Positions 29,669 through 34,430 of a stretch of 64,000 nucleotides of DNA are shown here, piece after piece. The notes under the pieces are model-generated. The model was not told the DNA's origin and ran no database searches. It saw only the letters and a program-made list of their open reading frames with translations. Position 1 is the stretch's first letter. The number at the start of each line of letters is the position of its first letter. Both the position numbers and the translations under genes were made by a program. Location: positions 124,001-188,000 of the forward strand of contig NZ_QITQ01000005.1 in the NCBI RefSeq assembly GCF_003260265.1. The letters are read 5' to 3'. This DNA is from Roseovarius amoyensis. GTDB lineage: Bacteria > Pseudomonadota > Alphaproteobacteria > Rhodobacterales > Rhodobacteraceae.

Positions 29669-29710
29669 ATTATCCATATTTGTGATCACACGCTCCAAAC
29701 GCGTGATCAC
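29669..29710 (-). promoter_or_regulatory. sucC promoter with two GTGATCAC operator-like palindromes
   Basis: On the minus strand a -35 TTGGAG (complement of 29693-29698) and a -10 GATAAT (complement of 29669-29674) are separated by 18 bases. One perfect palindrome, GTGATCAC at 29682-29689, sits in the spacer. A second, at 29703-29710, lies directly upstream of the -35. Their centres are 21 bases apart, two helical turns. The same arrangement recurs before sdhC. A regulator binding both sites would be expected to compete with RNA polymerase. Confidence 0.65.
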
Positions 29711-29740
29711 AACAGCCGGAAGTGCCGGGGCGTTGTCAGG

Positions 29741-29775
29741 GAGAAAAGAATCAGGGCCGGTCGCGGCCGGCCCTG
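29741..29775 (-). terminator. mdh rho-independent terminator
   Basis: Perfect 9-base stem CAGGGCCGG/CCGGCCCTG (29752-29760 with 29767-29775) and a six-base loop. On the minus strand it is followed by ATTCTTTTC. It separates mdh from the downstream sucC promoter. Confidence 0.85.
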
Positions 29776-29825
29776 TCTGAATCACATCGTGCCCGGTCCG
29801 GTATGGTTGAAACCGGGTCGGCGCC

Positions 29826-30788
29826 TCATTTGAGCGAGGCGTCGATTTCCTTGCAGGCCTCGACCAGGCCCTTGACCGCCTTGACGGAGGTGTCGAACAT
29901 TTCCTGTTCCTGCTTGTTGAGCTTGATGTTCACCACCCGCTCGATCCCGCCGGCGCCGATCACGGTGGGCACGCCCACATACATGCCCTTGACCCCGAGA
30001 TCGCCATCGCAATAGGCGGCGCAGGGCAGCACGCGTTTCTGATCCTTGAGATAGGCCTCGGCCATCTCGATGGCGGCGGTGGCGGGGGCGTAAAAGGCCG
30101 ACCCGGTCTTGAGCAGGCCGACGATTTCGGCGCCGCCGTCGCGGGTGCGCTGCACGATGGCGTCCAGCTTGTCCTGCGTGGTCCAGCCCATTTCGACCAG
30201 GTCGGGCAGCGGGATGCCGCCAACGGCGGAATAGCGCACCGAGGGCACCATCGTGTCGCCGTGGCCGCCCAGCACGAAGGCGGTGACGTCTTTCATCGAC
30301 ACGCCGAATTCAACGCTGAGGAAGTGGCGGAACCGCGCGCTGTCCAGCACGCCGGCCATGCCGCAGACCTTGCGTGTCGGCAGGCCCGAGAACTTCTGCA
30401 GCGCCCAGACCATCGCATCCAACGGGTTGGTGATGCAGATGACAAAGGCGTCGGGCGCGTTGGCAGCAATGCCTTCGCCGACCGATTTCATGACCTTGAG
30501 GTTGATGCCGAGCAGGTCATCGCGGCTCATCCCCGGTTTGCGCGGCACGCCGGCGGTGACGATGCAGACATCGGCGCCGGCGATATCGGCATAATCCTGC
30601 GTGCCCTTGAGCGTGGCGTCGAAACCTTCGGACGGGCCGCTTTCGGCGATGTCGAGCGCTTTCCCTTCGGGGACGCCTTCGGCAATGTCGAAAAGAACGA
30701 CATCGCCCAGTTCCTTGAGGGCGGCGAGATGGGCGAGCGTGCCGCCGATTTGTCCGGCGCCGATGAGGGCGATCTTGGGTCTGGCCAT
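29826..30788 (-). CDS. mdh: malate dehydrogenase (NAD, LDH-like type)
   Basis: A 320-residue enzyme oxidising malate to oxaloacetate. The N-terminal Rossmann motif is [13 protein letters not shown]. The substrate-specificity arginine region [12 protein letters not shown] marks malate rather than lactate use. The catalytic histidine is in [14 protein letters not shown] lies 8 bases before ATG 30788. A terminator follows the stop, so mdh is transcribed separately from sucCD although it is on the same strand. Confidence 0.97.
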
Positions 30789-31092
30789 GGGAACAATCTC
30801 CGCTGGTTGGATTTGCGCATTGGCCTAGTCGCAAAGCTCGCCGCGTGCAAGGGTGCCGCGACGCGGCAAATCTGTTAGGCCGGGCAAACCGGCGCCGCCG
30901 TGACCGGATCAACCCGAAAATTCAGAGGGTTTCGGCGGGCTTCGCCGCTGGTGGCGCACATATGTATGACGTCTGTGCGCGTGCATGGCGCGGTCATCCT
31001 TGCAGGTGTTTCCGGGGGTGGAACCGGCGCGGATGCGGGCTTTTTCGGGGCGGCGATTCTGGCTGGTGTGGGCGATAGGGGACGGCGGGCGT
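30789..31092. other. 304-bp gap upstream of mdh, no gene supported
   Basis: No reading frame here has a convincing start, ribosome-binding site or family resemblance. The region must contain the mdh promoter (minus strand), but I cannot pick a clear -10/-35 pair. No GTGATCAC site is present, unlike the sucC and sdhC regions. Confidence 0.6.
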
Positions 31093-31389
31093 TCAGGCGT
31101 CGTCGCCCGGTGCGGGTGCTGCCGCCGTCATCGCCTCAAAGGCGTGGCCGCTGGCGATCAGGCAGGTGATGCCGTGTGCGTTGGTCGCGGTGATCGTCCA
31201 GGTGCCTGTTTCGGGTGCGGCGAAGACCTCGACCACCGTGCCCTGCGAGGCCAGCCCGATGGATTGGCGCGATTCGCCGAAACCCGCGGCCAGCTCTTCG
31301 ACAACCGTTTCGCGTGGCGCGCAGCTGTCGGCGGATGCCGGGTTGCACAGGCAGGCCGCGATGGCGGCCAGTATCACCGTGGGTTTCAT
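31093..31389 (-). CDS. small secreted protein of unknown function
   Basis: A 98-residue protein with a signal peptide (MKPTVILAAIAACLCNPASA, cleavage expected after ASA) and a mature part with two cysteines (SCAPRETVVEE and GITCLIASGHAF) that could form a disulfide. The pattern resembles short periplasmic proteins found widely in Rhodobacteraceae, but I cannot name a family. ATG 31389 is preferred over a GTG one codon upstream. It is divergent from mcl2. Confidence 0.72.
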   Translation of the reverse strand: MKPTVILAAIAACLCNPASADSCAPRETVVEELAAGFGESRQSIGLASQGTVVEVFAAPETGTWTITATNAHGITCLIASGHAFEAMTAAAPAPGDDA

Positions 31390-31614
31390 CACGTCTCAAG
31401 CCCCTTTCCAGGTTCGGTCCTTGCCAAAGCACTGGGAACAGCCTGCGGGCCGTGCGCCAAGAGCAGGTTAACGATGCGCGCGGAGGGGCAGCGTGGCATG
31501 GTGTCAGGCTGCCGCCGCATTCTGCGCTGCGGCGGAAAAGGGCTTGAACAAATCGGGCGAAAAATGGCAGGACAGCGCAAGAATATTTCCGTGACCCCTG
31601 TTGAGGACGTGCCG

Positions 31615-33029: not shown

Positions 33030-33238
33030 GCGAGATGCGGCTTTATCGTTTTCTGACGGGCGAGGACAACTCCGCCTTTTGTCACAAGGTCACCGAGGCG
33101 CTGAATAAAGGATGGGAGCTGCATGGCTCCCCCGTCTATGCCTTTGACGCAAAGGCCGGGGTCATGCGCTGCGGCCAGGCCGTGGTGAAAGAGGCAGAGG
33201 GCACCTATGCGCCCGATATCAAGCTGGGAGAGCAGTGA
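33026..33238 (+). CDS. DUF1737 domain protein
   Basis: A 70-residue protein matching DUF1737: the pattern YRFLTGEDNSAFCHKVTEALNKGWELHGSP with a C-terminal AEGTYAPDI. Function unknown. The start overlaps the NnrU stop (ATGA at 33026). mch starts three bases after its stop. Confidence 0.85.
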   Translation: MSEMRLYRFLTGEDNSAFCHKVTEALNKGWELHGSPVYAFDAKAGVMRCGQAVVKEAEGTYAPDIKLGEQ

Positions 33239-33240
33239 TC

Positions 33241-34272
33241 ATGGCCAAGACCAATCCGGGCCGCTTCTTTGAGGATTACAGGGTCGGCGAAACCATCGTC
33301 CACGCGGTACCGCGCACCGTGTCGGGGGGCGAGCGGGCGCTTTATCATGCGCTTTATCCGGCGCGGCACGCGCTGCATTCGTCGGACGAGTTCGCCCGCG
33401 CCTGCGGCCTGACGGCGGCGCCGATCGACGATTGGGCCGCCTTTCATCTGGTCTTTGGCAAGACCGTTCCCGACATCTCGCTCAATGCGCGGGCCAATCT
33501 GGGTTATGCCGAGGGGCGCTGGCTGGGGGCTGTCTGGCCGGGCGACACGCTGCGCGCGGTGTCCGAGGTGATCGGGCTCAAGCAGAATTCCAACGGCAAG
33601 TCCGGGGTGGTCTGGGTGCGTACCCGCGGGCTGAACCAGCGCGACGAGGTGGTGCTGGAATATGTGCGCTGGGTGATGGTGCTCAAGCGCGACACCGAAG
33701 CGCCTGCGCCTGAAACGGTGATCCCCGAATTGCGCCCGGCACTGGCCGCCGGCGATCTGATGGTGCCCGAGGGGCTGAATTTCACCGGCTACGACTTTGC
33801 CCTGGCCGGTGAGCCGCATCGCTGGGGCGACTACGAGGTGGGCGAGCGGATCGACCATGTCGATGGCGTCACCATCGAGGAAGCCGAGCACATGATGGCC
33901 ACGCGGCTGTGGCAGAACACGGCCAAGGTGCATTTCGATGCCAGCCTGCGCGAGGACGGACGCCGCCTGATCTATGGCGGGCATGTGATCTCGCTGGCGC
34001 GCGCGCTCAGCTTCAACGGGCTGGCCAATGCCCAGGTGGTGGCGGGGCTGAATGCCGGCGCGCACGCCAACCCCTGTTTCGCGGGCGATACCGTGCGGGC
34101 CTGGTCCGAGGTGCTGGACAAGGCCGAAACGGCCGCACCGGGCGTCGGCGCGCTGCGCCTGCGGCTGGTGGCGACCAAGGGCGGGGCGCCTTTCGCGCTG
34201 AAGGGCGAGAATGGTAAATACCTGCCCGAGGTTCTGCTCGACCTCGATTACTGGGCGCTGGCACCGATGTGA
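33241..34272 (+). CDS. mch: mesaconyl-C1-CoA hydratase
   Basis: A 343-residue double-hotdog hydratase that interconverts mesaconyl-CoA and beta-methylmalyl-CoA in the ethylmalonyl-CoA pathway. Strong landmarks are NPGRFFEDYRVGETIVHAVPRTVSGGERALYHALYPARHAL, VWVRTRGLNQ and a second MaoC-like unit with HFDASLREDGRRLIYGGHVISLARALSFNGLANA. Length equals that of characterised Rhodobacter Mch. I chose ATG 33241 over a GTG at 33235; GGGAG lies upstream. With mcl2 it indicates acetyl-CoA assimilation without isocitrate lyase, though the other pathway genes are not in the window. Confidence 0.93.
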   Translation: MAKTNPGRFFEDYRVGETIVHAVPRTVSGGERALYHALYPARHALHSSDEFARACGLTAAPIDDWAAFHLVFGKTVPDISLNARANLGYAEGRWLGAVWPGDTLRAVSEVIGLKQNSNGKSGVVWVRTRGLNQRDEVVLEYVRWVMVLKRDTEAPAPETVIPELRPALAAGDLMVPEGLNFTGYDFALAGEPHRWGDYEVGERIDHVDGVTIEEAEHMMATRLWQNTAKVHFDASLREDGRRLIYGGHVISLARALSFNGLANAQVVAGLNAGAHANPCFAGDTVRAWSEVLDKAETAAPGVGALRLRLVATKGGAPFALKGENGKYLPEVLLDLDYWALAPM

Positions 34273-34290
34273 GTCGTCCTTGGCGTGTTT

Positions 34291-34298
34291 GTGATCAC
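34291..34298. promoter_or_regulatory. distal GTGATCAC palindrome downstream of mch
   Basis: A single GTGATCAC in the context TGTTTGTGATCACGATTG, 18 bases after the mch stop and 112 bases upstream of the paired sites before sdhC. It could be an auxiliary operator for looping. Confidence 0.45.
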
Positions 34299-34402
34299 GA
34301 TTGATGGGCGTTCCTGCGGTCGTGCCAGCATGGGGCGAGCATGAGATGGCGGGATGTCGGACCCGTTCTCGGCCATAGGCGCACCGATAGGCCGGTTTGT
34401 GC

Positions 34403-34430
34403 GTGATCACATCAATTTGAGCGTGATCAC
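34403..34430 (+). promoter_or_regulatory. paired GTGATCAC palindromes upstream of sdhC
   Basis: Perfect palindromes at 34403-34410 and 34423-34430, centres 20 bases apart. Between them is TTTGAGC (-35-like TTGAGC at 34417-34422), and the second site is followed by AAA. The sucC promoter has the matching order GTGATCAC, TTTGGAGC, GTGATCACAAA. A weak -10 AAAAAT lies at 34439-34444. The conserved layout points to one regulator controlling both TCA operons. Confidence 0.65.

Follow-up and report, generated by a model that had tools for sequence, protein, structure and literature searches.

This study concerns a 64,000-nucleotide stretch of the Roseovarius amoyensis genome (contig NZ_QITQ01000005.1, positions 124,001 to 188,000; hereafter the window), and specifically the paired octamers that lie in it before two sets of tricarboxylic acid (TCA) cycle genes, sucCD-odhAB-lpd and sdhCDAB. 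The octamer, GTGATCAC, was counted five times, at 29682, 29703, 34291, 34403, and 34423, which are the positions that had been given in an initial annotation of this DNA. Two copies are located between mdh and sucC, a promoter-proximal site at 29682-29689 and, 21 bp from it, a promoter-distal site at 29703-29710, both assigned to the minus strand, on which sucC itself (28378-29571) is read. The other three are on the plus strand between a mesaconyl-CoA-hydratase-like gene and sdhC; they comprise a pair, with its distal site at 34403-34410 and its proximal site 20 bp away at 34423-34430, and a third octamer at 34291-34298, 112 bp upstream of the pair. The annotation had put the chance expectation below one copy; it was slightly higher, at 1.15, but the excess itself was real, with five or more copies in none of 100 dinucleotide shuffles of the window.

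Within the host genome (3.82 Mb, 85 contigs) the pattern GTGATCAC-N10..16-GTGATCAC occurred in two places only, the sucC and sdhC promoters, and a control with the pattern reversed gave no matches, so the pair is not scattered at random but sits at these TCA-cycle promoters, as the initial annotation would predict. Single octamers numbered 123 genome-wide, above the 69 or so expected when the window shuffles are scaled up, and this general excess is what would favor chance, or a non-regulatory role such as a GATC methylation site, as the source of the octamers. That notion is scarcely credible given that both the position and the spacing of the pair are conserved across the family. A longer form, TTGTGATCAC, was found eight times in the 3.82 Mb, four times at the sucC and sdhC promoters and once at the candidate regulator gene described below; the other three copies were in a short gap between open reading frames (L174), within a large open reading frame (L176), and in presumed coding DNA (L181).

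The pair was present in 266 of 295 sampled genomes of the family, with no match to the reversed control among those listed; 29 genomes had no pair, 47 had one, 204 had two, 11 had three, and 4 had four (the pair tallies, and the two gene/pair tables used below, were made from lists transcribed by eye). Conservation at the two promoters was assessed on a set of loci fetched by similarity to the hydratase, and so independently of the motif; these were the 80 matches listed, R. sphaeroides not being among them, from which loci without a usable gene match or with less than 600 bp upstream were dropped (13 for sucC, 8 for sdhC). An exact pair preceded sucC in 66 of 67 of these relatives, the exception (L054) having one octamer, and sdhC in 67 of 72, where L071, L091, and L094 retained one octamer and L025 and L047 none. 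The pair is thus kept at both promoters, which is what the annotation had anticipated. Among 30 pair loci from further family genomes, 27 adjoined sucC or sdhC, and 43 more pairs, picked among the matches listed, divided into 22 before sucC and 21 before sdhC. A search at the level of the class (385 genomes, N11..14) recovered the pair in 10 genomes, namely all five sampled members of the family, the host included, and 5 of the 380 outside it; the reversed control was empty except for five matches in one genome (G367). Two family genomes, G044 and G042, carry an extra octamer pair away from the TCA-cycle genes searched (L119 and L120, respectively). The third octamer is less regular: one was found upstream of the pair, within 600 bp of sdhC, in 21 of the 67 listed relatives with a pair, at 12 to 236 bp from it, and at 110-113 bp in six of the 21 (L018, L019, L020, L022, L023, and L059, four of them titled Roseovarius), with other distances in the remaining 15.

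Spacing within the pair is nearly invariant. With octamers 15-26 bp apart counted as a pair, 111 of the 133 listed pairs had a site-to-site distance of 21 bp and 21 had one of 20 bp, the single exception being at 24 bp. The details recorded earlier for the two pairs in the window were confirmed, with 21 bp at sucC and 20 bp at sdhC, the sites separated by sequence containing TTTGGAGC or TTTGAGC, and AAA following the second site. TTTG(G)AGC was considered as a conserved spacer element and rejected, as the spacers of relatives vary and are only A/T-rich in the middle. The outer flanks were kept at sucC of relatives, with TTT before the pair and AAA after it.

A plausible regulator is found in a related system. 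RSP_0981, a GntR-family protein of Rhodobacter sphaeroides, is said to have been named AkgR by Imam et al. in 2015, with TCA-cycle genes reported as activated. Excerpted text of PMC6365646, which cites that work, gives GTGATCAC as a motif among the binding sites of AkgR, which it describes as a transcriptional activator, and in an excerpt of PMC4344238 the predicted targets of RSP_0981 are sucCD (RSP_0967-6), sdh (RSP_0974-6), and odh (RSP_0965-62). The AkgR regulon is already known, since both its motif and its target list are in print, and the window has both features in a different organism: GTGATCAC stands at target promoters, and the targets are sucCD-odh and sdh. In the initial annotation a single regulator had been proposed for both operons, with AkgR named tentatively. 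The first proposal is strongly supported by a pair that is unique to these promoters in the genome and common in the family, and the second gains support from the motif and predicted targets in the excerpts just cited. The octamer pairs are very probably operators of AkgR, a GntR regulator with an FCD ligand-binding domain, which would activate both sucCD-odhAB-lpd and sdhCDAB. Neither paired AkgR sites with their 20-21 bp spacing, nor an akgR-promoter octamer, nor the sdhC register described below were found in the literature searched, which did not extend to the primary AkgR paper, where they may be reported.

The host genome has 14 GntR genes above the cut-off, and one of these (L140) is probably akgR, the inferred orthologue of RSP_0981. 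L140 specifies a protein of 216 residues with GntR and FCD domains, adjoins an accA-like gene, and lies on a contig other than that of the window. An octamer is found 17 bp before its ATG, the sole upstream octamer among the roughly 3-kb loci of the 14 GntR genes; at L141, a GntR gene 35% identical to L140, the octamer is downstream of the gene, and the other GntR loci have none in about 3 kb. All 30 of the genes best matching L140 (its own included) had an octamer upstream of the ATG, at -16 to -20 in 29 of them and in most preceded by a TTGAC -35-like element, and it was also present at 15 of 20 lower-ranked matches picked across those listed. With so little room between the -35-like element and the ATG, the akgR transcript may be leaderless and the octamer may lie between the -35 element and the start, an arrangement in which AkgR may limit its own synthesis. 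The best match of L140 among sequences of solved structures was 4p9f, the helix-turn-helix (HTH)-type transcriptional regulator mcbR (E 2.4e-20), on which no argument is built.

Presence of an L140-type gene (E < 1e-50) and of the pair was concordant in 281 of the 295 family genomes, with both in 260, the pair only in 6, the gene only in 8, and neither in 21 (phi 0.72). The six pair-only genomes included three of 73-77% completeness, the others being at 91, 93, and 100%. L128, another FCD regulator and the sole other one compared, was rejected as the partner of the pair because it co-occurred more weakly (218, 48, 6, and 23 in the same order; phi 0.43). In the class, 17 of 385 genomes matched L140 at E up to 1e-30; these were the five family members already mentioned and 12 others, the latter at no more than 43% identity, and only one genome outside the family, G669, had both such a match and the pair. 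Within the suc-sdh loci L018-L097, tblastn gave no match to an L140-like gene at 1e-6. In four genomes chosen for having gene and pair on one contig, the gene was 7.5-10.5 kb from sucD.

This proximity, the restriction of the upstream octamer to L140 among the 14 GntR loci, and the closer agreement of L140 than of L128 with the pair all speak against a different assignment, in which the pairs are bound by one or more other GntR/FCD paralogues, a wider subfamily shares the octamer as its motif, and the accA-adjacent gene is not the main regulator. Such an assignment is unlikely, although there is some reason to entertain it. Paralogues are at hand, with 14 GntR genes above the cut-off and L141 at 35% identity, and a GntR protein of Pseudomonas simiae (PS417_07240), which is only 32% identical to AkgR and regulates another pathway, deoxyribonate catabolism, has been proposed to bind the same octamer, which in that case lies 40-47 bp ahead of the start codon of its gene (PMC6365646). 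Outside the family, on contig L183, an octamer pair adjoins a GntR gene 27% identical to L140, which would fit with use of this motif by GntR proteins of a wider subfamily.

The initial annotation had the sucC sites overlapping a good -35/-10 pair, which was not supported, as relatives show no -10-like consensus at GATAAT (29669-29674), only an A/T block. Downstream of the proximal octamer, at a distance of about 55-80 bp, relatives instead have a conserved promoter-like region, and the 67 aligned sucC upstream regions show an extended -10-like consensus, TGCCTATACC, downstream of the pair, weaker than the conserved element at sdhC. In the window, the probable sucC promoter (29606-29634, minus strand), a weak assignment made by eye and from the alignment footprint, has its -35 element TTCAAA at 29629-29634 and an extended -10, TGCGTATAC, at 29606-29614; with the -10 profile, a different part of the window scored higher than this -10. 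A separate promoter for sucC fits with a terminator-like hairpin after mdh (29752-29775, minus strand), upstream of the sucC pair. At sdhC, the one promoter element assigned in the window is the -35-like GTGACA (34489-34494, plus strand), which is conserved in the aligned upstream regions and begins 66 bp after the first base of the proximal octamer. A second block shared by relatives, approximately CG.AATTTC.CCGCAAA.CCC, corresponds to 29655-29676 and lies downstream of the sucC pair, ahead of the probable sucC promoter.

The same regulator could conceivably repress both operons, through an alternative promoter that the sites overlap. A TTTGGA...GATAAT-like pair can be read around 29669-29698 at sucC, and there is an FCD-type GntR precedent in DgoR of Escherichia coli (FadR family), which according to an excerpt of PMC7674646 acts as a repressor at two inverted repeats that lie over its promoter. 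Repression is nevertheless rather improbable: AkgR is called a transcriptional activator in the excerpted text of PMC6365646, and the conserved promoter-like elements are downstream of the pairs and, at sdhC, in helical register with the pair.

This register was measured in 84 sdhC promoters (the window, 67 listed loci, and 16 further genomes, with duplicates between the sets retained), counting from the first base of the proximal octamer to the -35-like element within a search range narrowed to 40-110 bp. The distances fell at 55-56, 65-68, 76-78, and 86-88 bp in 77 of the 84, the other seven having no -35 match. Two out-of-register secondary -35-like matches, in L027 at 83 bp and in L082 at 30 bp, were set aside on -10 score and search range, respectively; both promoters have a match at 66 bp. 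All 15 promoters off the main peak were within 1.5 bp of whole 10.5-bp turns relative to it, with a vector length of 0.87 at a period of 10.5 bp and 0.90 at 11 bp, compared to 0.23 at 9 bp and 0.67 at 8 bp. Octamer-to-ATG distances, used as a comparison, showed no such order (vector length 0.15). The phasing had been seen before it was tested, and fresh promoters were consequently collected. After removal of two that were identical to promoters already counted (L245 and L255) there were 19, of which two had no -35 match and all 17 others were in register; three of these were away from the main peak, at 56, 77, and 87 bp.

A register of this kind is the trace expected of an activator working from one face of the helix, and would fit with activation of sdhC by AkgR. 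With the transcription start placed at the usual distance from the -35 element, the sdhC octamers would lie near -98 and -118. Probably one AkgR dimer binds each octamer. The two dimers would then share one face of the DNA at a separation of two helical turns, some 85-120 bp before the transcription start, and would jointly activate by contact with RNA polymerase, possibly with DNA bending. The fuller proposal, that AkgR is a face-locked, distant, and cooperative activator, with two dimers on a rigid two-turn operator confined to the helical face of the promoter, that this operator has been moved in evolution only by whole turns (about 55, 66, 77, and 87 bp at sdhC) and that the octamer at akgR serves autorepression, stands in our view about an even chance of being right.

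A number of observations weigh against the AkgR explanation, in whole or in part. Three of the 30 pair loci from further genomes were away from sucC and sdhC, L124 adjoining mdh alone and L119 and L120 none of the genes searched, and the pairs of the five genomes outside the family had no suc, mdh, or sdh gene alongside (tblastn at 1e-8, 2.5-3 kb read). At the candidate gene, the octamer was absent from 5 of the 20 lower-ranked orthologues and from three of the four genomes with gene and pair on one contig. Gene and pair were discordant in 14 of the 295 genomes, and the cut for gene presence was chosen after the values had been seen. Shared ancestry inflates co-occurrence, an unrelated regulator giving a phi of 0.43 as well, and as it inflates both values it is the difference between 0.72 and 0.43 that counts. 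A strict sigma-70 scan detected no promoter at the proposed sucC or sdhC elements; it decides nothing, because the promoter of the initial annotation was missed along with those proposed here. The phasing pattern at sdhC was, as stated, noticed ahead of its test. When the four distance classes were placed on a quick tree built from SdhA of 61 loci, at least eight changes were required, but well-supported branches force at most three for any one class, and the chance of the register, about 5e-5 for eight independent changes, rises to about 0.02 for three (0.289 cubed, the per-event null). Lastly, the register at sucC was not cleanly measurable with a -10 profile, whose score 75 of 107 upstream regions reached. 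The picks were at 40-54 bp from the proximal octamer in 18, 63-66 in 6, 69-70 in 2, 73-76 in 46, and 84-87 in 3, and because many of those at 40-54 bp, including that of the window, look A-rich and false, no claim of helical phasing is made for sucC.

Two other regulators invite comparison. CitO, the citrate activator of Enterococcus faecalis, is likewise an FCD-type GntR protein that, according to an excerpt of PMC4746285, induces organic-acid genes from binding sites upstream of the target promoters; it differs in its ligand, citrate, and its pathway. CceR (RSP_1663) of R. sphaeroides is, in the excerpt of PMC4344238, another predicted regulator of sdh and mdh, but it belongs to the LacI family and has the motif [A/G/T]GTT N6-8 AAC[A/C/T]. 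From an excerpt of PMC11323563, sdh and odh are in the CceR regulon of R. sphaeroides but not in that of P. denitrificans. The presence of CceR sites in the present promoters was rejected, as the CceR motif, which is identical read on both strands and was scanned on the plus-strand text, had no match in 29572-29825 or 34273-34602, compared to nine in the whole window.

The genes downstream of the two pairs are arranged as follows. In the operon that AkgR would control from the sucC pair, sucC is the first gene and is followed on the minus strand by sucD (27363-28250), a DUF805 gene (26863-27318), odhA (23586-26540), odhB (22031-23581), and lpd (20467-21861). All are open reading frames, assigned with Pfam except for odhB and lpd, whose names, like that of mdh, were given from sequence without a Pfam scan. 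Flanked by sucD and odhA, the DUF805 gene is internal to the suc-odh run. On the plus strand, sdhC, sdhD, sdhA, and sdhB occupy 34603-38952 (open reading frames and Pfam) together with an extra open reading frame of 297 amino acids (37278-38171) between sdhA and sdhB, which had no Pfam match at 1e-8. The start of this extra frame presumably resembles a sulfotransferase.

From raw sequence, a regulon of the TCA cycle that had been described in a single model bacterium was found to be widespread in its family. What is added to the known regulon is a candidate gene with its own octamer, the co-occurrence of that gene with the pair, the 20- or 21-bp spacing kept by all but one of 133 pairs, and the register at sdhC, the geometry of which is a modest new lead. 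The phased sdhC promoters represent a natural experiment that bears on possible contacts between a GntR-type activator and RNA polymerase. If the face-locked arrangement is true, one short regulatory code would tie expression of the TCA cycle to the level of AkgR across most of the family.

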